Of a DNA stretch of 47,500 bases, positions 4,522-47,500 are shown in pieces. The stretch is from a virus: IMG/VR virus record IMGVR_UViG_3300042923_001129, positions 1-47,500 of that record; one strand, 5' to 3'. The notes below the pieces were generated by a model. It worked only from the letters and a program-made list of their open reading frames with translations. It was not told the origin of the DNA and made no database searches. Position numbers and translations under genes: made by a program. Positions within the stretch are counted from its first letter, which is position 1. Each line of letters begins with the position of its first letter.

Positions 4522-4525
4522 ACCC

Positions 4526-5938
4526 GTGACAGAGGGCGAACTCCTCATCGCAGTCGGCGCGGTCGCCCTGATCGCGGCGACGATGCTGCCGGTCGCGTGG
4601 GTCTGGCTCCGGTCCTTGAAGTTTGCTCCGATCGAGTACCGATCGGAGCAAACTCGCGACCAGCGGATGAAGATGCAGGTCACGATCGTCCTGGCCTGGG
4701 CCTATTCGTTCGTGCCGGCTCTCGTGCAGCGGTTCACGACGGCCCGCCGCGCGAACACCGTCGCCGACGTTGAAGCGCTGAGTGGTCTCGCGAGCACGGC
4801 GACCATTGCTTTGCTCGGATGCCTGGTCCTTTGGTGCCTCTTCACAATCGTCACGAGTGTCCGCGGCGGTCGGATTCGGCTCGGCGCGCTGACGATCGTC
4901 ACACTCCCGTTCGCGTACAACATCGCGTCAACCGTCGCGAATGCGCAGCCACTCCCGAACAACGTCGTGGCATCCGTAGCTGTCATCCTCGCGCTCGCGC
5001 TCTGCTCGGTGCGGTTGGAGAACCTGCGGGTTATCCCCTACCTGCTCGCGATCACCGCGGGCGCATCCCTCGTGCTCGGCGCACTCTTCCCGCACATCGG
5101 CCTGATGGCAGGTCAGTCCGGCGCCACGACCACGGCCGAGAAGGGAATCCTCTTCGACTCGCTGCTCGCCGGTGTCTACAACCACTCGAACGTGCTCGGA
5201 ACGATGCTGATCCTCGGCCTCCCGTCCGTGCTGCTCCTGCGACGCCAAGCCCACATTGTGGTGATCGTCGCAATCACCGGATTCGCGCTCGTGTGGTCGA
5301 GCTCGCGCACGTCCGTCTTCTCGCTGCTCGCAGCGCTGGCCGGTACCGCAGTGATGGCGCTGCTGACCCCGCGCGCGCGGTCGGCGTGGGCCATTGTGAG
5401 TGTGGTCGGTGCGTTGTGTGTTGTAGTAACCCTGCCGCTGATCACCCACGAGGCGCAGGCGTTCTCGTCACGCGGGCAGATCTGGGCGGGAAGCCTGTCG
5501 CAAGCCGCCGCCTCTCCCATCACGGGCGGCGGCTACGGCTGGTACGGCCACATCGCGGAGTTCTCCAACTCCCTAATCGCGGTCGCGTTCAACGGTCACA
5601 ACCTCTTCGTGCACGCCGCCACAACGGGTGGCGCGCTCTATCTCCTCGTGCTCGCGATCCTGTTCATCGGCCTATTGGTGGCCGCGATCCGCTTCGCCAC
5701 ACGCGGAGCGCTGTACCCGTACGTTTTCCTCCTGGCCTACGCTGTGATCTCGACGCTGGAGGTCGTTGCCCGATACCGCGATCTCGACCCCGCGTTCTGG
5801 GTCGTCGTCGCCCCTATCGCTGTGTTCATCTTCAGCTCGGCAGACCTCAAGCCGCGAGCCCCAGAGTCGGGTTCTTCGCGCGGATCTGCGCGCGGAGCGT
5901 CGCGATCTCCGATGCGGTCAGCGCGCGCGGGTAGCTGA
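4526..5938 (+). CDS. O-antigen ligase/polymerase-like (Wzy/WaaL-type) membrane protein
   Basis: A 470-aa polytopic membrane protein with about ten hydrophobic segments. It has the pattern of the Wzy_C/O-antigen ligase family: a large loop containing SSRGQIWAGSLSQAAASPITGGGYGWYG, then FNGHNLFVHAATTGGALYLLV, the region where family members hold conserved Arg and His. Such proteins polymerise or transfer lipid-linked glycans on the outer face of the cytoplasmic membrane. GTG 4526 has GGGAGA upstream. The last ~30 residues (PRAPESGSSRGSARGASRSP...) are low-complexity and antisense to the 3' end of the receptor-binding-protein gene (92-bp convergent overlap), suggesting the native end was lost on insertion. 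A perfect 15-bp inverted repeat lies in codons ~32-43. Probable lysogenic-conversion gene altering the cell-wall glycan. Confidence 0.75.
   Translation: MTEGELLIAVGAVALIAATMLPVAWVWLRSLKFAPIEYRSEQTRDQRMKMQVTIVLAWAYSFVPALVQRFTTARRANTVADVEALSGLASTATIALLGCLVLWCLFTIVTSVRGGRIRLGALTIVTLPFAYNIASTVANAQPLPNNVVASVAVILALALCSVRLENLRVIPYLLAITAGASLVLGALFPHIGLMAGQSGATTTAEKGILFDSLLAGVYNHSNVLGTMLILGLPSVLLLRRQAHIVVIVAITGFALVWSSSRTSVFSLLAALAGTAVMALLTPRARSAWAIVSVVGALCVVVTLPLITHEAQAFSSRGQIWAGSLSQAAASPITGGGYGWYGHIAEFSNSLIAVAFNGHNLFVHAATTGGALYLLVLAILFIGLLVAAIRFATRGALYPYVFLLAYAVISTLEVVARYRDLDPAFWVVVAPIAVFIFSSADLKPRAPESGSSRGSARGASRSPMRSARAGS
4620..4654. repeat. perfect 15-bp inverted repeat inside coding sequence
   Basis: Arms AGTTTGCTCCGATCG and CGATCGGAGCAAACT are exact reverse complements around the 5-nt spacer AGTAC. 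It lies near the 5' end of the O-antigen-ligase-like gene. As RNA it would be a very stable hairpin; as DNA it is a dyad. Confidence 0.95.
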
Positions 5939-9482: not shown

Positions 9483-10316
9483 TCACAGGGCCGCCCAGTT
9501 CTCTGTGTCGGCCTTGCTCAGCGCGGCGCGCATGACTGGCCCCGGGATGTCGTCCCCCGAGTACCGCTTCGTCGCGCGCAGCCACCGGGCGATCGCCGCC
9601 CACATGACGGGCCCGAGCACGTCGTTGCCGACGTACCCGTATTTCGCCCGCAGGAACTGCGAGAACCCGTGCATCGACGTCGGCCCGAAGTTCTGGTCGA
9701 GCTTCGTCTCGCCGAACCCGCCGTGCGGGAGGTAGAGGTTCGCGACCTTCTGCAGCCCGCCCGTGAACGGGATGCCGAACGGGTTCGGTCCGAGCACCCC
9801 GGCCACCGCTCCCCCGGCATCGGTCACACCGCCACCAGCCGGAGCCGGAGCGGGAGCCGGAGCCGGAGCTGCCTCCGTGAGGCGGCCGCCCGCGACGCGT
9901 CGGATCTCCGGGAGTGGATCGAGGTAGCCGCCGCCGACGCGCTGCTGCTCGATGTGCACGCACGAGCCCGACGTCGCGCCGGAGTTGCCCTCGTGGAGGA
10001 TGATCTTCCCCTGCGGGATCCGCTCGCCGATCGCCTGCTGCGATGCCCACGGTCCGTGCGCGTAGCGGAAGTCGAACTCCATGCCGTCGAGCACAGAGCG
10101 GATGACGATCGAGTAGCCGAACCCGTGCGTCGGACCGGGCACCGTCTTGGAGACGACGACACCAGCGTGCAGCGCGGGCACCGCGACGGTACCCGGCTTG
10201 GACGAGTGCGAGATGTCCTGTCCGCGATGCTGGCGCCGGCCACCATCACGGGGAGCGCCGAACTGGCCTCCGCTGAGGTTGATCCCGCCCGAGTAGTAGT
10301 CGCTCACAGCGCTCAC
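9483..10316 (-). CDS. M23-family endolysin with C-terminal cell-wall-binding repeats
   Basis: A 277-aa lysin. Residues ~20-140 are an M23 (LytM-like) metallopeptidase domain: zinc motif H30-RGQ-D34, YAH87, and G-x-SCVH121. The last motif is normally HxH, and here the first His is replaced by Cys119. An Ala-Pro linker follows (~149-160). Residues ~205-277 hold two similar short helical motifs (NDVLGPVMWAAIARWL and GDDIPGPVMRAALS), likely wall-binding. M23 enzymes cut peptide cross-bridges of peptidoglycan. There is no signal peptide, so export depends on the holin. GTG 10316 overlaps the upstream stop (GTGA). Confidence 0.75.
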   Translation of the reverse strand: MSAVSDYYSGGINLSGGQFGAPRDGGRRQHRGQDISHSSKPGTVAVPALHAGVVVSKTVPGPTHGFGYSIVIRSVLDGMEFDFRYAHGPWASQQAIGERIPQGKIILHEGNSGATSGSCVHIEQQRVGGGYLDPLPEIRRVAGGRLTEAAPAPAPAPAPAGGGVTDAGGAVAGVLGPNPFGIPFTGGLQKVANLYLPHGGFGETKLDQNFGPTSMHGFSQFLRAKYGYVGNDVLGPVMWAAIARWLRATKRYSGDDIPGPVMRAALSKADTENWAAL

Positions 10317-26705: not shown

Positions 26706-27062
26706 CTACGCCGAGATGCCCTTCCGGGCCTTGAAGTCAGCGAGGCTGTTCGGCGTCGCGGCGGGCTCGTCGCTCGCGACGTCGACCACCTCCGCGGCAT
26801 CCGGCTTCTTGGCCGGCGGCTTCGTCACGGGCTCGGCGGTGCCCTTCGGCCGGCCAGTTGCGTTGAGCACCGCACGGACGTCTTTCAGCGCATTCCGGTA
26901 CTCGATCCGCGGCCGCGATCCGCCTCCCTCGTCCAGCTCGTCTGCGAGCGAGCGGAGCAGCTCGACAAGGGGTGCTTCCTCGGGCACCTGAGCGAGGCCC
27001 GTGGACCGCAACATCCGCGTCAATGCGGCCCTGTGCGGCCGTTCCGACTTCCTCGGCGACAT
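26706..27062 (-). CDS. terS: terminase small subunit
   Basis: A 118-aa basic protein directly upstream of terL: MSPRKSERPHRAALTRMLRSTGLAQVPEEAPLVELLRSLADELDEGGGSRPRIEYRNALKDVRAVLNATGRP..., resembling small DNA-recognition terminases of actinophages. It binds the packaging site, expected in the ~100 bp upstream. ATG 27062 is preceded by AGGGGG. Confidence 0.75.
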   Translation of the reverse strand: MSPRKSERPHRAALTRMLRSTGLAQVPEEAPLVELLRSLADELDEGGGSRPRIEYRNALKDVRAVLNATGRPKGTAEPVTKPPAKKPDAAEVVDVASDEPAATPNSLADFKARKGISA

Positions 27063-27159
27063 CGGGCACCCCCTGGTAGAAAATCGGGCGATCTGAGCCC
27101 GGGGAGAGAGGACCGCTCCCCCGGTGGTGGTCCGCCCCCAGGTCGGGATGCTGGATTTT
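27063..27159. other. non-coding gap upstream of terminase: candidate packaging (cos/pac) site
   Basis: A 97-bp non-coding stretch lies between the last small gene and terS. It has G/C tracts and a 5-bp inverted repeat (GGACC...GGTCC) within ACCACCGGGGGAGCGG. In cos phages the cut site usually lies here. No overhang can be assigned without comparison to related phage ends. Confidence 0.35.
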
Positions 27160-27264
27160 TCAGGGGGTGGGGGTTGCGACCTCGGTGCATCCGGGGTTGC
27201 AGGGTTGCCCGATGGTGTGGTCGTGCAGCACGACGTGGGCGCCGCCCCATGGGATGCCGTCCAC
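27160..27264 (-). CDS. possible 34-aa Cys/His peptide
   Basis: GTG 27264 starts 2 nt after the upstream stop and encodes VDGIPWGGAHVVLHDHTIGQ followed by PCNPGCTEV..., with H and Cys residues spaced like a small metal site. Tight spacing and sensible composition support it; length is the main doubt. Confidence 0.45.
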   Translation of the reverse strand: MDGIPWGGAHVVLHDHTIGQPCNPGCTEVATPTP

Positions 27265-27266
27265 GG

Positions 27267-27614
27267 TCAGCGGGTGAGGACAGGGCGTCCGCAGGTGAGC
27301 GTGCGCCAGAGGGACCGGTGTCGCCACTCCCCCGGGCGGATGACCACGACGCCGTCACAGCAGACGCAGCGGGCGTCGGCCGAACCGTGCAGCGGGAGGT
27401 ACACGCGGTCCCACGCCGGCTGGTGGGGCGGGCGCACGGGGAGTGCTGACCACCGGCTCGCCTCGGCCGGGCCAGAGGGGCGCGCGGGCTCGGGCGGCCA
27501 GTTGGTCTTGGCGCGCTGCTCGGGCGGGAGGTAGAGCGGATGCCCGGCCTGCTCCCAGGGGTGCTGCGGGTGGTAGGCGTCGGTGCCGTCGGCGTCCAGC
27601 TCGCGGCCGCTCAC
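27267..27614 (-). CDS. hypothetical protein with CVCCDG zinc-like motif
   Basis: A 115-aa protein (VSGRELDADGTDAYHPQHPW...) rich in Pro, Trp and His, with CVCCDGVVVIRPGEWRHRSLWRTLTCG near the end, a probable zinc site. GTG 27614 overlaps the stop of the upstream 37-aa gene (GTGA). Family unknown. Confidence 0.6.
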   Translation of the reverse strand: MSGRELDADGTDAYHPQHPWEQAGHPLYLPPEQRAKTNWPPEPARPSGPAEASRWSALPVRPPHQPAWDRVYLPLHGSADARCVCCDGVVVIRPGEWRHRSLWRTLTCGRPVLTR

Positions 27615-27724
27615 GACGCGCTCGCAGGGAGCAGCTCGTCCGGCATGTCTTCGCAGTTGATGCGGACGCCTGTCTCGGGGTGGACCCACTGGTGCGGCAT
27701 GGGGTCGTGTCGGTAGTCAGTCAA
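27611..27724 (-). CDS. small hypothetical protein (37 aa)
   Basis: TTG 27724 has GAGGAGA upstream and encodes LTDYRHDPMPHQWVHPETGV... ending in PDELLPASAS, a shape often seen in small actinophage proteins (VHP-ETGVRINC). It is coupled by overlap to genes on both sides, which is the best evidence that it is real. Confidence 0.6.
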   Translation of the reverse strand: MTDYRHDPMPHQWVHPETGVRINCEDMPDELLPASAS

Positions 27725-27881
27725 CGGCTGTCTCCTCGTCGGTGCGTCCGCCTCGGAGGACGGCGGCGGTGGTGCGGAGGTCTTCGAGGGAGCGGCAGGG
27801 GAAGCGGGACACGGGGTGGTGTTGGCGGCAGCGTGGGCAGAGGGGACCGAGGACGTCGAGTGGAACCCCGACGTCGGTCAC
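27717..27881 (-). CDS. small zinc-ribbon-like protein (54 aa)
   Basis: GTG 27881 overlaps the upstream stop (GTGA). The product is VTDVGVPLDVLGPLCPRCRQ, then HHPVSRFPCRSLEDLRTTAAVLRGG..., with CPRC...HH...C as a likely metal site. Overlap on both ends supports expression within the operon. Confidence 0.6.
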   Translation of the reverse strand: MTDVGVPLDVLGPLCPRCRQHHPVSRFPCRSLEDLRTTAAVLRGGRTDEETAVD

Positions 27882-28970: not shown

Positions 28971-29299
28971 CGTGTGCCCCTTCCGTGGAGCCCCTCGGCC
29001 GGGAGAGCTGCCGCGGTGCCCTGGGAAGCGCCAGCGGGTCCGTCGGGGGCGACGGTGCTCGATCCCGGCCGAGGGATCCTGTCGAGTCGGTTCGGTGTGC
29101 GCGAACGGCGAGAGCCGGTCTGCACGAGCACGACCCGGGATGAAGGGGTTCGTCTCAGCGGACCGGCTCTCGCCGTATCTGGCACCACCACGCGCCGACG
29201 GTCCCTGTGCACTGCCAGGAACCGCCAACACTGACGTTAGGCTCTGTCACCGCTCCGAACGCAAGTACGTGCGTCAGATCGGCGTGTCGCAGCGCGCAA
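28971..29299 (-). promoter_or_regulatory. 329-bp non-coding leader of the late operon
   Basis: No gene is seen. It contains a perfect 16-bp inverted repeat (29105-29120 / 29161-29176), a smaller GATCCC/GGGATC hairpin near 29061-29078, and a plausible minus-strand -10 TAACGT (29234-29239) with TTGCGT 19 bp upstream (29259-29264). It lies directly upstream of HNH and terminase, so it is a likely site of late-gene control. Confidence 0.5.
29105..29176. repeat. 16-bp perfect inverted repeat with 40-nt spacer
   Basis: ACGGCGAGAGCCGGTC (29105-29120) is the exact reverse complement of GACCGGCTCTCGCCGT (29161-29176). It could form a long RNA stem in the late leader or be a paired protein-binding site. 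Confidence 0.95.
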
Positions 29300-29614
29300 T
29301 CACGGTGTGGTGCAGTCGCACTCGCATGGGAGGAGACGGCTCGTGCGGTCGTCGCGCATGCTCTGCATGCAGCTCGTGCAACGGTCGAATGCGCACTCGA
29401 CGCAACGCACCACGCCGTCGACAGCGAGGATGCGGTCGAGCAGTTCGGCGGTGATCTCAAGCTCGGCCATGATTCGCTCGTCGCTCACGCCGGCGTTGCG
29501 GAATGCTTCGACGTCGCGCCGCACTGATCGGCGGTGTTCCCGGGCTGCGCGGCGGGCGGCGGCGCCGAGGGCCTGGACAGCTGCGGTTCGGTCTGTAGGG
29601 TTGTCTGAGCCCAT
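29300..29614 (-). CDS. helical protein with Cys-rich C-terminus
   Basis: A 104-aa protein: a charged helical N-terminus (MGSDNPTDRTAAVQALGAAARRAAREHRRSVRRDVEAFRNAGVSDERIMAELEITAELLDRIL; an HTH-like 'GVSDERIMAELEIT' is visible) and a Cys cluster CVECAFDRCTSC...CECDC, likely zinc-binding. ATG 29614 follows CAGGAGAG. It is the first gene left of the repeat region and may be a late regulator. Confidence 0.65.
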   Translation of the reverse strand: MGSDNPTDRTAAVQALGAAARRAAREHRRSVRRDVEAFRNAGVSDERIMAELEITAELLDRILAVDGVVRCVECAFDRCTSCMQSMRDDRTSRLLPCECDCTTP

Positions 29615-29640
29615 CGGTACTCTCCTGAGTGTTGGGTGGT

Positions 29641-29678
29641 GGAGCGGCTCCCGTGATGTCCAGTCCCGGAGCCGCTCC
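29641..29678 (-). promoter_or_regulatory. leader hairpin upstream of the 29.3-29.6 kb gene
   Basis: Exact 11-bp arms GGAGCGGCTCC / GGAGCCGCTCC with a 16-nt loop lie 27 nt before the start codon, downstream of a TAACGT -10 candidate (29712-29717). It could attenuate transcription or occlude translation. Confidence 0.5.
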
Positions 29679-29745
29679 GTCGTTTCGCCAGCAGATCGCT
29701 CGGCATGTCTGACGTTAAGGACGGCCTCCGACAGGCGCAACACGC

Positions 29746-29944
29746 CCTGTGGATAACTGTGTGGAAAGCCTGTGCGAAACGCCGCACTTCCTGTGTACAA
29801 CTCCTGTGAACAAGTCATCGGTTGACGCAGTGCCGCGTAGCGAATCCGCGGTCTGATCAGGCACATCGCATTTCACAGCCTGTGGAGACAGCGCGGGACG
29901 TAGTCCATGACCACCTTCCAGTCCGGATTGATACCTGTGCACAA
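29746..29944 (+). repeat. CCTGTG repeat cluster with DnaA box: candidate origin or regulator array
   Basis: Six same-strand copies of an 11-mer CCTGTGnnnAA or close variants start at 29746 (CCTGTGGATAA), 29769, 29790, 29803, 29879 and 29934. A related TGTGGAAAG is at 29760 and a reverse-orientation TTTCACA near 29871. The first copy holds TGTGGATAA, the exact complement of the DnaA box TTATCCACA. The 382-bp gap 29615-29996 is otherwise non-coding and relatively AT-rich. Confidence 0.6.
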
Positions 29945-29984
29945 TTCCGCGCGCCCGACTATCGACCACAGCACGGCATCTCGC

Positions 29985-29990
29985 TAGAGT
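29985..29990 (+). promoter_or_regulatory. -10 element of a probable leaderless promoter
   Basis: TAGAGT (TANNNT) ends 6 nt before ATG 29997. A -35-like TCGACC lies at 29962-29967 with 17-bp spacing. Confidence 0.55.
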
Positions 29991-29996
29991 CCCCGC

Positions 29997-30182
29997 ATGG
30001 CCTCAACCGACTTCGACCCGGACGGACTCGTGCAGGCGAAGCGATTGATCAAGGAGCTTGAGGATCACCTCGAAGATCAGCTCGTGGACGAGGACCACCC
30101 CGACCACCTTCTCGATGAGAGGAAGATGCTGCGAGTGCTCCGGATCCTCGCCGATCAGGTCGAGATGCTGCGCGAGGAGTGA
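29997..30182 (+). CDS. small acidic helical protein
   Basis: A 61-aa, mostly alpha-helical and acidic protein (MASTDFDPDGLVQAKRLIKELEDHLEDQL...ADQVEMLREE), probably a coiled-coil dimer. It is the only plus-strand gene in the middle of the prophage and starts right at the edge of the CCTGTG repeat cluster from an apparent leaderless promoter. That isolation suggests expression in the lysogen and a role tied to the repeats (for example DNA mimicry or antagonism), but this is speculation. It overlaps the end of the convergent gene by 28 bp. Confidence 0.6.
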   Translation: MASTDFDPDGLVQAKRLIKELEDHLEDQLVDEDHPDHLLDERKMLRVLRILADQVEMLREE

Positions 30183-32945: not shown

Positions 32946-33567
32946 GGTGCACCTCGCCGCAGTCCTGGCAGCGTGAGACGACGTCGCCGCCCCAGAGCTG
33001 CGTGCGCACCGCGAGAGCGCCGCAGAGCATGCAACGGCGAGCGGGCGACCGCGGGATCGTCGGCACGCGGCGGTCCGGGTCGCCGTACTGGCCGTGCGCG
33101 GCCCGCACCTGTGCGAACAGGTGGTCCTCGGTGTCGCCGAGCTGGGCGAGCGGCGCGATCCACTCGACGCGGTCGACGAGCCACCCGACGATCACGATCG
33201 CGTCGCGACGGACGTCGGCCGTCGTGCGAATGCCGGCGACCTCACCACGGGCCCGCCAGCGAGCGACTCCGGGGAGCGGGGCGAGTGGCGCAGGCACGAG
33301 GTCCTGCACGTTGTCGGCGTACTGGACGAGCGCCGCCCAGAGGTCGTCGACAGCGTCGATCACCTCAACACGGAACGGGACGGGCGCGCCGTCACGCGAC
33401 GTCTGCACCCGCACCGCCTGGTAGTCGAACGCGGAGATCGACACTGCCTCCGCGCGCATCAGATCGAGCAACCCCGGGATCTGGTCCAGGTGCCACGTCC
33501 AGCGCTGAATCCACCGCTTCCACTGGTCCTCAGGCGTGAGAACCAGAGCCTCGAGCACCTCAGGCAC
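32938..33567 (-). CDS. hypothetical protein with C-terminal zinc ribbon
   Basis: A 209-aa protein starting at GTG 33567 (VPEVLEALVLTPEDQWKRWIQRWTWHLDQIPGLLDLM...), helical N-terminus, then a ribbon RRCMLCGALAVRTQLWGGDVVSRCQDCGEVH at the end. Related zinc-tailed proteins occur in Microbacterium phages without known function. It overlaps the HTH-repeat gene upstream by 8 nt. Confidence 0.6.
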   Translation of the reverse strand: MPEVLEALVLTPEDQWKRWIQRWTWHLDQIPGLLDLMRAEAVSISAFDYQAVRVQTSRDGAPVPFRVEVIDAVDDLWAALVQYADNVQDLVPAPLAPLPGVARWRARGEVAGIRTTADVRRDAIVIVGWLVDRVEWIAPLAQLGDTEDHLFAQVRAAHGQYGDPDRRVPTIPRSPARRCMLCGALAVRTQLWGGDVVSRCQDCGEVHRA

Positions 33568-34903
33568 GGGCGACCTCCACCGCGAGGAGACGTTCAGCCT
33601 TCGACGCCTCGACATTGTCGGCGAAGACGCCCTTGCGATCGCCGCTGCGGCCGTAGATCAGGTCACCGATACGGCTGCGATGCACACCGGATGCGGTCGC
33701 GATCGCGTCGAGAGTCATGCCGCCAGCCATCAGCGTGCGCACGTGCTCACGGACCGGCGCCGCGTCCACTCGCGGTGCAGCGGCCGGAACGCCGGCTTCC
33801 CGACGTCGGCGGCGCTCCTCGGCGAGCATCGCGTCGGTGCACGACACCTCGGCCGGGCATGCGCTGCGGCCGCGGCATCCGAGCTGGTATCCGTACGGCG
33901 TGCCGTGATGCACAGCCTCGAGCGGCTCGGCGCGGCGCCTCGCTTTGTACTGCCGGTGATACTCGCGGTTTGCCGCGACGCACTCCTCACGGCGGCATCC
34001 GCGGGCGTAGCAGGCGTTCGTGCCGTGCGGCTGCAGCTTCTCGGGCGATCGCCTCCTCGTGGCCGGACGATGCGCGGTGAGCTTCAGCTCGCGGCGCAGT
34101 CGGCCGACCTCGCTGTGATGCAGCCCGAGCTTTTCGCCGATCTGCCGGTCCGTGAGGCCCTCAGCGTGCGCCTCTGCGACCTCTGGGCGGCGATCGCGGC
34201 GGCGCTGGTAGACGGTCCGCTTGCGTGCTGCCCGTTCCTTGCGGTGAGCGGGCAGCTTGAGGTCGCGCCGGAGCGTCCCGGCGTAGGCCGGCGCGATGCC
34301 CAGCTCAGCAGCCACCTCGTCGTCGCGGAGACCCTGCGCGTGGAGCCGTGCGACGTCGGCGCGACGGTCCTTGCGGGGCCGCAGCTCACGGCCGACACGC
34401 GGGATGCGCGCGACGACGACAGGGGCGAGCCCGAGATGACGACGGACCCGACCCACGGTGTCGCGGGAGATCCCAATCTGCTCGGCGATCTGCCCGTCGT
34501 CCAGGCCCTCACCGCGTAGCCGCGCGATCTCGGCGGCGTGCGCGGTGGCGGCAGTCGCGCGCGGCTCGCGCGGCGGCTTCGGAGCCTTCGGTGGGCGAGG
34601 TGCTCGGACCGCCCGCACGCGCGCCGGCTTCCTGGCCGCGGCCTCCCGGCGCCGCTCGGCGATCGCTGCCTGACGGTCGCGCTGCCGGGTGGCCTCACGC
34701 TCAGCTTCGTCGCGGGCGGCGATCTCGGCCGCGGTCATGCCGGCGTCGATCAGCTTCCGGAACGAGTAGTCGCCCTGGTAGCGGCGGTAGACGTCGCGGC
34801 AGGCGATCGCGGATCCGCACGCCGAGCCGTGGCATCCCTGGCGGTAGCCGTCGACGGTGCCGTGCGGGAACGAGGGGTCGTAGAGGTCGAAGGTGCGGCT
34901 CAC
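33560..34903 (-). CDS. protein with four HTH repeats and three HGT/Cys motifs
   Basis: A 447-aa basic protein with unusual repeated design. Three HGTxxxYxxGC...C motifs occur at residues ~14-36 (HGTVDGYRQGCHGSACG), ~293-310 (HGTNACYARGCRREEC) and ~333-355 (HGTPYGYQLGCRGRSACP), likely zinc-binding. Three near-copies of an HTH (~123-159, 181-217, 240-276), each ending 'V..(L)RR(D/E/H)L(K/G)L', follow pattern AxGLxDxQIAxxLGI. A fourth HTH is at 384-420 (MTLDAIATASGVHRSRIGDLIYG). Arg/Pro/Ala linkers join them. Small proteins with one HGT motif are common in actinophages; this string is not one I recognise. Probably a DNA-binding organiser or regulator. GTG 34903 overlaps the upstream stop. Confidence 0.75.
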   Translation of the reverse strand: MSRTFDLYDPSFPHGTVDGYRQGCHGSACGSAIACRDVYRRYQGDYSFRKLIDAGMTAAEIAARDEAEREATRQRDRQAAIAERRREAAARKPARVRAVRAPRPPKAPKPPREPRATAATAHAAEIARLRGEGLDDGQIAEQIGISRDTVGRVRRHLGLAPVVVARIPRVGRELRPRKDRRADVARLHAQGLRDDEVAAELGIAPAYAGTLRRDLKLPAHRKERAARKRTVYQRRRDRRPEVAEAHAEGLTDRQIGEKLGLHHSEVGRLRRELKLTAHRPATRRRSPEKLQPHGTNACYARGCRREECVAANREYHRQYKARRRAEPLEAVHHGTPYGYQLGCRGRSACPAEVSCTDAMLAEERRRRREAGVPAAAPRVDAAPVREHVRTLMAGGMTLDAIATASGVHRSRIGDLIYGRSGDRKGVFADNVEASKAERLLAVEVARA

Positions 34904-37802: not shown

Positions 37803-39026
37803 TCAGAGAGTGACCGCGGGTGCCCACGGCCAGGTTTGGTGCGGCCGGGACCGGTCGCGGCGGAAGAGCTTCTCGGGCCAGGCGCGGGCGTCACGGTCTC
37901 CGCGCCAGCGGACGACGTGGAACGGGCGCGAGCCGTGCTCCAGCTCCTTGCTCGCCGAGATACCGAGGCCGAACTCGGGCCAGCCGAGCAGCGCCGACGA
38001 GCCGCGGGGACGGAGGTCCCGCTCGCCGCGCGAGGACTGCGTGTGGCCGGCGTGAGCCTCGATGAGCATCGCGACGTTGCGGTCCCGCAGAGAGTCGAGA
38101 GCGGCGATCACCGGGGCCGCGTCGTCGTCGTCCTTGATCGAGCGAGGGACGAGCTTGTACAGCGGTCCGATGAGCAGCAGATCCGGGCGCGTCTCGTCGA
38201 CGAGCCGGTGCACCATTCCGAGGTCCTGCGGCCGGGTGATGTCGATCTGCTTCGTCAGGCAGTGGATTGCGACGTTCTCAAGCGGGTCGCCATTGCCGAG
38301 CAGCGCAGCCTGCGCCGCCATGTCGCGGACCGCGCGACGCCACTGCCGCTCGCTGTTCTCCGCGTCGACGACGAGGACCTTGACGGGATCGATCGGTGAG
38401 AACCGGAACGGGTGGATGCCCGCCGCGGAGAGCACTGCGATCTGTCGGAGGAACGTCGACTTGCCGCCACCCTCGGAGCCGGTGAGCACGAGACGGTCGC
38501 GGCGCTCGAGCAGCCCCGGCACCGCCCAGTCGTACTGGTCGACCTCGGGAGCGACGTCGAGCACTTCGCGCAGCGACCGTGCCCGGATGACACCGCCCGA
38601 CATGTCGCGATCGCGGATCTTGCGGAGCGCCTCGATCGAGTCCTGCAGCGCGACGCCCGGCTCCCGCACCTCGAGCAGCCGGCGCCCGACGTTCTGCAGG
38701 TCCCGGATGAGCGCCGCCTCCCGCACGATGCGTGCGTAGTAGGGAGCGGACGTCGGAGCCGTGACCGCCGTCGACCAGGCGGTGAGGTCCCCGACGTCGA
38801 TGCCGCGCACCTCCCACTCGGCGAGGTGATCCCAGACGGTGAGGTAGTCGACCGGCTCGCCCTTCGCGGCCATGCCGACGATGCCCCGGTAGATGTCTCC
38901 GAGCCGGAGGTCGGCGAAGTCGGCGGGGATGATCTCCTCGCGGACCGAGCGGAGCACTGCGGGGTCGAGCAGCAGCGAGCCGATGACGTGGCGCTCGGCG
39001 ACGTCGGCCGGCGTGCCCGCGCTCAC
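37803..39026 (-). CDS. DnaB-like replicative helicase / AAA ATPase
   Basis: A 407-aa protein: a DnaB N-terminal-like helical domain (residues ~5-110; DVAERHVIGSLLLDPAVLRSVREEIIPADFADLRLGDIYRGIVGMAAKGEPVDYLTVWDHL), then a RecA-like ATPase with Walker A GSEGGGKST (~183-191), VLVVDAENSERQWRR and a late LIEAHAGHTQSSRGERDLRPRGSSALLGWPEFGL, resembling RepA/AAA_25-type helicases. It would be loaded by the replisome organiser two genes upstream. GTG 39026 is coupled by overlap. Confidence 0.85.
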   Translation of the reverse strand: MSAGTPADVAERHVIGSLLLDPAVLRSVREEIIPADFADLRLGDIYRGIVGMAAKGEPVDYLTVWDHLAEWEVRGIDVGDLTAWSTAVTAPTSAPYYARIVREAALIRDLQNVGRRLLEVREPGVALQDSIEALRKIRDRDMSGGVIRARSLREVLDVAPEVDQYDWAVPGLLERRDRLVLTGSEGGGKSTFLRQIAVLSAAGIHPFRFSPIDPVKVLVVDAENSERQWRRAVRDMAAQAALLGNGDPLENVAIHCLTKQIDITRPQDLGMVHRLVDETRPDLLLIGPLYKLVPRSIKDDDDAAPVIAALDSLRDRNVAMLIEAHAGHTQSSRGERDLRPRGSSALLGWPEFGLGISASKELEHGSRPFHVVRWRGDRDARAWPEKLFRRDRSRPHQTWPWAPAVTL

Positions 39027-39241
39027 GATCCGTCCCCGCACATGCAGGAGCCGTCGACGGCTTTCTCGGTCCAGCAGCCCGGGCAGATCTCGCGGATGAG
39101 ATCCATGCGCCCGGGCGGGCAGTGCTCGTGGACCCACGTCGCCTTGCCGCCGTCGAGCGGGTCAGGCTTGATGAAGTCGCCGACCTCGATCCAGCCCTCG
39201 CACGCGGGGCACTTCGTCGGGATCTTCGCTGCGACGCTCAT
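39023..39241 (-). CDS. zinc-finger protein
   Basis: A 72-aa protein (MSVAAKIPTKCPACEGWIEVGDFIKPDPLDGGKATWVHEHCPPGRMDLIREICPGCWTEKAVDGSCMCGDGS). CPAC...WVHEHC is a recurrent finger in actinophage DNA-metabolism operons, with a second Cys cluster at the end. It lies between organiser and helicase, overlapping both by 4 nt, and may be a replication accessory factor. Confidence 0.7.
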   Translation of the reverse strand: MSVAAKIPTKCPACEGWIEVGDFIKPDPLDGGKATWVHEHCPPGRMDLIREICPGCWTEKAVDGSCMCGDGS

Positions 39242-40017
39242 CGGTTGAACGCCATCCACGAGTCGGGACCCTCAAGCTCCGACGACAGCGGAGCGGGAGC
39301 CGAGCCACCACCCGACGTCTCGACGCGAGGAGGAAGCGCCTCGTCCTCCCACGAGCCGCGGTTCAGCCACGTCGCCGGATGAGGGATGAACTGCTTCGGC
39401 GGCAGGTTCGGATCCGCAGCGAACCGGCGAGCCGCCTCAACGATCTCCACTGCGCTCGCCCGCTTCACCGCCTTGTCGAACGCCGCGCGCGCATCCTCCT
39501 TCGCGACCTTCCGCGGATACGCGAGATAGAACTCCGCGAACGTCGGGACGGGCGCCGGAGGCTCCACCAGCTCATCGCCAGAGAACAGACCGTGATCTCC
39601 TGACAGATGGTCTTCGGAGGAAATGGTGTTCTTAGTGGTGGATTCACCGCTAGCGGCTGAGCCGTCAGCGGGTGGCCCGCTAGCGGCTGATCCACCGGTA
39701 ACGGAAAATCCGTCACCGGTCGCCGGATCCTGCAGCTCGTACTCAACCTCGTTGAATCGACCACCCTCACCGCGCGACTGCCCGACGCGGAGGTACCCGT
39801 ACTCCTTCAGCTCCGCGAGAGCCGACTTGATCGCGTCGCGACCCTCGACGCCGGCCTTCTGCAGCCCCGCCACGGTGACGTGCCAGCCGACCCGGTGCGA
39901 CATGATCTCCACGAGCAGCCCCCGTGCACGGCGTGACAGCCGGGCATCGCGCACCCACTCGTTCGGCACCTGCGTGAAGTGCCCCTCGAATTCGAGAGCG
40001 GTCCTTCGAACGCCCAT
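39238..40017 (-). CDS. replisome organiser (initiator) with HTH and DnaD-like end
   Basis: A 259-aa protein: an N-terminal winged helix (FEGHFTQVPNEWVRDARLSRRARGLLVEIMSHRVGWHVTVAGLQKAGVEGRDAIKSALAELKEYGYLRV, residues ~10-77), a low-complexity linker with GSAASG repeated (~105-155), and a C-terminal helical domain FAEFYLAYPRKVAKEDARAAFDKAVKRASAVEIVEAARRFAADPNLPPKQFIPHPATWLNRGSWED typical of phage replication initiators. The linker DNA holds iteron-like repeats (39640-39720), as in lambda O where the origin lies in the initiator gene. ATG 40017 overlaps the HNH gene stop. Confidence 0.82.
   Translation of the reverse strand: MGVRRTALEFEGHFTQVPNEWVRDARLSRRARGLLVEIMSHRVGWHVTVAGLQKAGVEGRDAIKSALAELKEYGYLRVGQSRGEGGRFNEVEYELQDPATGDGFSVTGGSAASGPPADGSAASGESTTKNTISSEDHLSGDHGLFSGDELVEPPAPVPTFAEFYLAYPRKVAKEDARAAFDKAVKRASAVEIVEAARRFAADPNLPPKQFIPHPATWLNRGSWEDEALPPRVETSGGGSAPAPLSSELEGPDSWMAFNR
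39640..39720. repeat. iteron-like repeats inside the initiator gene: candidate origin
   Basis: CCGCTAGCGGCTGA occurs at 39647-39660 and 39677-39690 (each with palindromic core CCGCTAGCGG), with a related CCGTCAGCGG between them. A near-palindrome ACCGGT-A-ACGGA-AAA-TCCGT-C-ACCGGT follows at about 39694-39720. An AT-richer stretch lies just to the left (39618-39645). Confidence 0.55.
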
Positions 40018-47406: not shown

Positions 47407-47440
47407 AGGCCCCTCACCCGGCGAACCGGGGAGGGGCCTC
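47406..47440 (+). terminator. terminator after integrase
   Basis: Perfect 10-bp stem GAGGCCCCTC / GAGGGGCCTC followed by TTCGTTGATTTT. It stops the lysogeny transcript before it reads antisense into the tRNA gene; its left edge overlaps the arm-type site. Confidence 0.8.
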
Positions 47441-47464
47441 TTCGTTGATTTTCTGCGGATAATC

Positions 47465-47500
47465 GGAGCCGACTACGGGACTTGAACCCGTAACCCCCGT
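47465..47500 (-). tRNA. attR core: 3' end of the target tRNA gene (truncated by the window)
   Basis: Exact copy of 92-127, running to the last base of the window. The T-arm and acceptor 3' strand are visible; the anticodon half lies beyond the window, so identity is unknown. Here the base after TCC is G (position 47464 is C on plus strand), whereas the left copy has TCCA. So the phage-supplied 3' end does not encode a full CCA, and the host nucleotidyltransferase would have to add it. Confidence 0.8.

Follow-up and report, generated by a model that had tools for sequence, protein, structure and literature searches.

It is known that DnaA can act as a transcription factor and that host factors act on phage promoters. 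DnaA of Mycobacterium tuberculosis binds upstream of dnaB in vitro and that of M. smegmatis does so in vivo, and the sole DnaA mutant with reduced binding upstream of dnaB also under-expresses dnaB (PMC7738170). Phage lambda offers an example in pR/pO, where host DnaA binds and raises transcription in the vicinity of the replication genes (PMC3985674 and the references it cites). The open-access papers that we searched held no report of a phage with a dnaB-type DnaA promoter. From our analysis of a 47.5-kb virus contig (IMG/VR record IMGVR_UViG_3300042923_001129; the whole stretch of 47,500 nucleotides is referred to as the window), we consider it highly probable that an array of DnaA boxes in this phage is the upstream half of a leftward promoter, a phage-borne copy of the Microbacterium-type dnaB control region that is predicted to be controlled by host DnaA. 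The sequence itself shows the positions and spacing of the boxes, the homology to dnaB promoters, a hairpin and the gene that follows it.

The phage contig and its probable host

Judging by gene families, the contig is that of a temperate siphophage. Genes for terminase, portal, capsid and tape measure proteins are found in the left part of the window, the early leftward operon carries genes for a RecE-like exonuclease, an O-like initiator and a DnaB-like helicase, and the right part holds repressor, metalloprotease and integrase genes. Homologues of the initiator occur in genomes of Frigoribacterium, Curtobacterium and Microbacterium, which makes a member of the Microbacteriaceae the probable host. 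An apparent truncated tRNA gene (47440-47500, minus strand) adjoins the integrase gene at the right end and is a likely attachment site. An unusual early protein of 447 aa (33560-34903, minus strand) shows several separate helix-turn-helix (HTH) matches (HTH_23 more than once, HTH_7, and HTH_3).

The array lies in a gap of ∼380 bp (29615-29996), which the sequence-only reading had described as the only large non-coding gap; this was overstated, since our rough gene calling also leaves 4522-5846 and 27015-27877 empty. The gap is bounded on one side by the gene of a 104-aa protein, which begins at 29614, and on the other by a divergent 61-aa orphan ORF, for which the homologue search gave no convincing match. 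The sole weak match of this ORF, considered as a possible regulator, lies inside a MerR-like reading frame (L211) and was rejected as chance.

Features of the DnaA-box array

The six-copy array noticed in the sequence-only reading was confirmed: CCTGTGNANAA occurs on the plus strand without mismatch at 29746, 29790, 29803, and 29934 and with a single mismatch at 29769 and 29879, giving six same-strand CCTGTGnAnAA elements in 199 bp. On the minus strand these elements read TTnTnCACAGG, that is, a DnaA box with a GG extension [Table 1], and the perfect DnaA box claimed for the first element is present (TTATCCACA at 29748-29756). Two related elements had been proposed in addition, of which the one at 29760 proves to be a degenerate DnaA box on the minus strand (CTTTCCACA), whereas the one at ∼29871 (TTTCACAG, plus strand) is only a weak match. 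With up to one mismatch, CCTGTGNANAA occurs at nine sites in the window and only three of these are additional to the six elements (shuffles: mean 2.3, largest 7). Eight same-strand DnaA-like 9-mers (TTNTNCACA, up to one mismatch) fall within 200 bp, against a maximum of four in 300 dinucleotide shuffles of the window, and matches to TTWTNCACA/TTRTCCACA are thus clustered beyond chance. The base at position 5 varies among the boxes, so some of them may be weak.

Table 1. Coordinates of the array, the predicted promoter, the neighboring genes and the replication genes in the window.
Feature	Position	Strand	Remarks
104-aa protein gene	29300..29614	-	First gene beyond the promoter; long N-terminal helix, predicted helix-turn-helix, C-terminal Cys cluster
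Leader hairpin	29641..29678	-	11-bp stem GGAGCGGCTCC/GGAGCCGCTCC; hairpin shared by L336, L337, L356; L242 and L281 have a similar stem
Putative -10 hexamer TAACGT	29712..29717	-	17 nt from -35; aligns with TANNNT of host dnaB promoters
Putative -35 hexamer TTGCGC	29735..29740	-	5 nt after box 1; TTG kept in host dnaB promoters and five other phages
DnaA box 1 TTATCCACAGG	29746..29756	-	-16 from the -35 hexamer; perfect consensus; box here in 36/36 host dnaB promoters
DnaA box 2 CTTTCCACA	29758..29768	-	One mismatch; at -28; host boxes here in 35/36
DnaA box 3 TTTCGCACAGG	29769..29779	-	Weak; at -39; within the host-conserved GGCGTTTC element
GGCGTTTC element	29776..29783	-	Most host dnaB promoters have it at this position
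DnaA box 4 TTGTACACAGG	29790..29800	-	At -60; host boxes at -60/-61 in 26/36
DnaA box 5 TTGTTCACAGG	29803..29813	-	At -73; host boxes at -71/-73
DnaA box 6 GTCTCCACAGG	29879..29889	-	Weak; at -149; host boxes at -148 to -150
DnaA box 7 TTGTGCACAGG	29934..29944	-	At -204; host boxes at -204 to -206
61-aa orphan ORF	29997..30182	+	Divergent; other side of the array
DnaB-like helicase gene	37803-39041		Early operon; 8 kb upstream of the array promoter
O-like initiator gene	39238-40017		

Predicted promoter, leader hairpin and downstream gene

The putative -35 and -10 hexamers follow the array in the leftward direction; a bipartite sigma-70 scan with the standard consensus called no promoter at the array. 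An Rfam search gave no match. The structure prediction of the 104-aa protein was confident for the HTH part and not for the Cys part, and a fold search with this HTH+Cys protein returned no match at E ≤ 0.001. An apparent host homologue of this protein (L375/L379) was dismissed on inspection. The array promoter and the 104-aa gene are situated at the early/late boundary, just before the late operon of packaging and structural genes. Next downstream on the minus strand (29106-29264), a further conserved element that resembles a promoter (TTGCGT, 19 nt, TAACGTCAG) precedes a hairpin with a 15-bp stem (z-score -4.8), beyond which come the HNH gene and the late operon; the element and its hairpin are shared with L002, L230, L312, and L313.

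Similarity to host dnaB promoters

For comparison across genomes, the core pattern was defined as a pair of boxes spaced 12 bp apart, with a TTG 5 nt beyond the second. Among 396 Actinomycetota genomes the core had five matches, and in four cases dnaB, the chromosomal gene of the replicative helicase, followed closely. Allowing up to one mismatch, it was found in 132 of 250 Microbacteriaceae genomes, nearly always once, while the reversed control gave 0. Where the dnaB coordinates were known, 73 of 79 matches were on the dnaB strand, 132-382 bp ahead of the gene, and most of those other matches that were retrieved as loci likewise had dnaB downstream. The concern attached to the sequence-only reading, that the motif might be equally frequent across the host genome, is thus set aside by the nearly single occurrence of the core and by its place before dnaB. 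The GGCGTTTC element together with a multi-box DnaA array is conserved upstream of dnaB in Microbacteriaceae genomes (e.g., L380, L383, and L170).

Host dnaB promoters share a layout of GGCGTTTC, boxes, TTATCCACAGG, 5 nt, TTG, 17-18 nt, and TANNNT. The window reads GGCGTTTCGCACAGGCTTTCCACACAGTTATCCACAGGGCGTGTTGCGC, 17 nt, and TAACGT, with 60 of 84 ungapped positions identical to the dnaB promoter of Microbacterium sp. 2FI. All six elements reported earlier (-16, -39, -60, -73, -149, and -204) have counterparts within ∼2 bases in 36 host dnaB promoters, where boxes cluster at -205, -150, -83, -72, -60, -28, and -16; those of the window are at -204, -149, -73, -60, -39, -28, and -16, and one host (L383) shares the exact positions -149, -73, -60, -39, -28, and -16 with it. 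An identical TTGTACACA is found at -60 in another host (L381), where the window has box 4. Boxes at -16/-28, TTG 5 nt past box 1, TANNNT 17-18 nt further on, and distal boxes near -60, -72, -150, and -205, which characterize the dnaB-type promoter of the Microbacteriaceae, are all present in the phage; its promoter, however, precedes the 104-aa HTH+Cys gene and not dnaB.

Conceivably, the array could be an operator with a fortuitous likeness to DnaA boxes, for a phage regulator such as the multi-HTH protein of 447 aa or the HTH protein of 104 aa. In favor of this, the phage encodes several HTH proteins, and the array is at the early/late boundary with the 104-aa HTH gene immediately after it. 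We regard this as highly unlikely, because bacteria that lack the phage have these boxes, identically positioned, in front of dnaB and the most conserved box is an exact DnaA consensus in all lineages. The operator array suggested in the sequence-only reading is therefore retained as to its link with DnaA and its site at the early/late boundary, whereas the predicted binder is most likely host DnaA and not a phage regulator, since the boxes match those of host dnaB. A further candidate role is that of a DnaA sink, by which seven to eight boxes per phage copy, ahead of the late block, would titrate host DnaA as phage copies rise and thereby slow host replication or time the late genes by replication. 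Such titration may add to promoter control, but as an explanation of the array it is unlikely, for host dnaB promoters carry 3-9 boxes within ∼200 bp and the ordinary number in the phage leaves no extra boxes to explain.

The similarity extends beyond the boxes. A profile of 35 host dnaB promoters scored the window site at 68.7 against -11.7 for the next best (rank 1 of 94,834 window positions), and without the columns of the search pattern the site was still rank 1 of 94,834 (26.2 vs 6.1). The upstream part of the array is identical to host L383 at 62 of 104 positions, while 3,000 random window segments reached at most 45. In a tree of 275-bp regions, the window groups with the dnaB promoters of Microbacterium sp. 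2FI and L383 (UFBoot 96, SH-like 0.93). Convergence on the same DnaA/RNA polymerase layout, instead of capture, would agree with the other phages that have such boxes, which outside the boxes and the -35 are no closer to hosts than many random places are. In this phage, however, the similarity reaches GGCGTTTC, the -10 and the stretch between boxes, and the tree nests the window inside host dnaB promoters, and we find convergence improbable.

The array and phage replication

The sequence-only reading also offered a replication origin, at which the array would recruit host DnaA in the manner of oriC. The array has perfect and near-perfect DnaA boxes in one orientation, several of them 11-13 bp apart; box types of the array, e.g., TTGTGCACA and TTGTTCACA, are present in host oriC regions too, and the local G+C dips to 56-60%. 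Nevertheless, the marks of an oriC-like site, namely a nearby initiator gene, a GC-skew minimum and an AT-rich stretch, are absent from the array. The initiator and DnaB-like helicase genes are 8-10 kb from it (9 kb for the initiator gene), and direct repeats are present within the initiator gene itself. The GC-skew plot, which had been suggested as a check, places the maximum of the cumulative skew (29647) at the array, as at a terminus and not an origin. The local G+C never falls below 56% per 100 bp, and there is no strongly AT-rich stretch for unwinding. The boxes abut a promoter at the positions seen in host dnaB promoters, a layout of the promoter type and not of the oriC type; in another phage with DnaA boxes (L242), the iterons are inside the initiator gene, separate from the DnaA array, and the nearest phage relatives are without the array. 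The array is probably not a replication origin, and the oriC-like reading is very improbable.

Two 17-bp direct repeats, 30 bp apart, are found inside the O-like initiator gene of the window (39647-39693) and are possible initiator sites. In L242, a run of about eight 12-bp iterons (AGAGCTAACCCC and variants, 9540-9634) inside the initiator gene is a likely phage origin.

The array in other phages

Relatives of the phage were searched with the terminase, small terminase-like, helicase, HNH, and initiator genes. The nearest phages (L002/L174, with 75-85% protein identity, and L309-L315) are without the array, which is hence not required by the whole phage group, while five less related phages have it; the expected conservation in related prophages was thus borne out for the latter and not for the former. 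In three of the five (L336, L337, and L356), DnaA boxes occupy the equivalent position, and the same hairpin and a homologue of the HTH+Cys gene lie downstream of them. In the other two (L242 and L281), the boxes precede a hairpin and a gene for a small HTH protein, and the genes that come immediately after are those of the initiator and the DnaB-like helicase. All five share with the window the two boxes 12 bp apart and the TTG 5 nt later. The homology probability between the 104-aa and the 65-66-aa HTH proteins of the two groups was 10%. In the tree, the other phages form a group of their own with weaker support (UFBoot 75), and by profile comparison they are not convincingly host-like beyond the boxes and the -35, so that shared function instead of descent could explain them.

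BLAST against named phages gave no match for the window stretch or for the cassettes of L336 and L281, and only 41-bp matches to the boxes for the L242 cassette. A scan of viral contigs for paired TTGTNCACAGG was discarded as a route to homologues, since it returned many unrelated DnaA-box arrays and no homologues. Dense extended arrays (10-18 boxes in ∼250 bp, many 11-12 bp apart) occur in unrelated viral contigs (L117 5040-5297, L123 10604-10846, L083/L088/L147, L111, L156, L149/L096, L143, L139, L093, and L113).

Proposed mechanism and comparison with known systems

In the mechanism that we propose, seven or eight boxes of like orientation, which span ∼200 bp and stop 5 nt short of the -35, would be bound by host DnaA first at the two strong promoter-proximal boxes (29746-29768), from which binding would spread along the weaker ones. 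The bound DnaA would then control RNA polymerase at the promoter (29740-29712). This effect is most likely activation and not repression, because the boxes are upstream of the -35 without overlapping the promoter. By analogy with mycobacterial DnaA upstream of dnaB, host DnaA should bind the phage array and activate the promoter. The transcript is predicted to start near 29705, to carry the stable hairpin and to encode the 104-aa HTH+Cys protein, for which we infer a regulatory role; this presumed regulator would be expressed when DnaA is available, in step with host dnaB.

It appears that the phage has appropriated a host switch by which gene expression is coupled to DNA replication. The papers that we searched described no phage with an apparent host replicative-helicase promoter, complete with its DnaA-box array, at a gene-expression boundary. 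If the phage promoter is indeed such a copy, it provides a simple way to test the sensing of host replication state by prophages and draws attention to a DnaA-controlled dnaB promoter that is conserved across the Microbacteriaceae and apparently little studied. More tentatively, temperate actinophages could have taken the host dnaB control region, perhaps repeatedly, and made of this promoter, with a hairpin and a small HTH gene, a movable switch that senses DnaA; placed before the replication operon or the late block, it would let a lysis/replication decision read the DnaA state of the host.

Among known systems, the oriC of Microbacteriaceae has the same box sequences as the array, but its boxes are on both strands and, in the hosts examined, between dnaA and dnaN, a layout unlike that of the window. 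Phage lambda pR/pO resembles the window in having host DnaA on a phage promoter, as predicted here; the lambda sites, however, are downstream of pO and serve the origin, whereas the array is dense, upstream of the -35, and adjoins the late block. M. tuberculosis and M. smegmatis are likewise actinobacterial and have DnaA upstream of dnaB (PMC7738170), where DnaA binding in the phage is a prediction; these sites are chromosomal and from another family, and the likeness is drawn without a comparison of box layout. In the dnaB control region of Microbacteriaceae, the number, strand, and spacing of the boxes, GGCGTTTC, the -35, the 17-bp spacer, and the -10 are the same as in the phage, whose copy differs in that it precedes a hairpin leader and an HTH+Cys gene, with no dnaB homology downstream.
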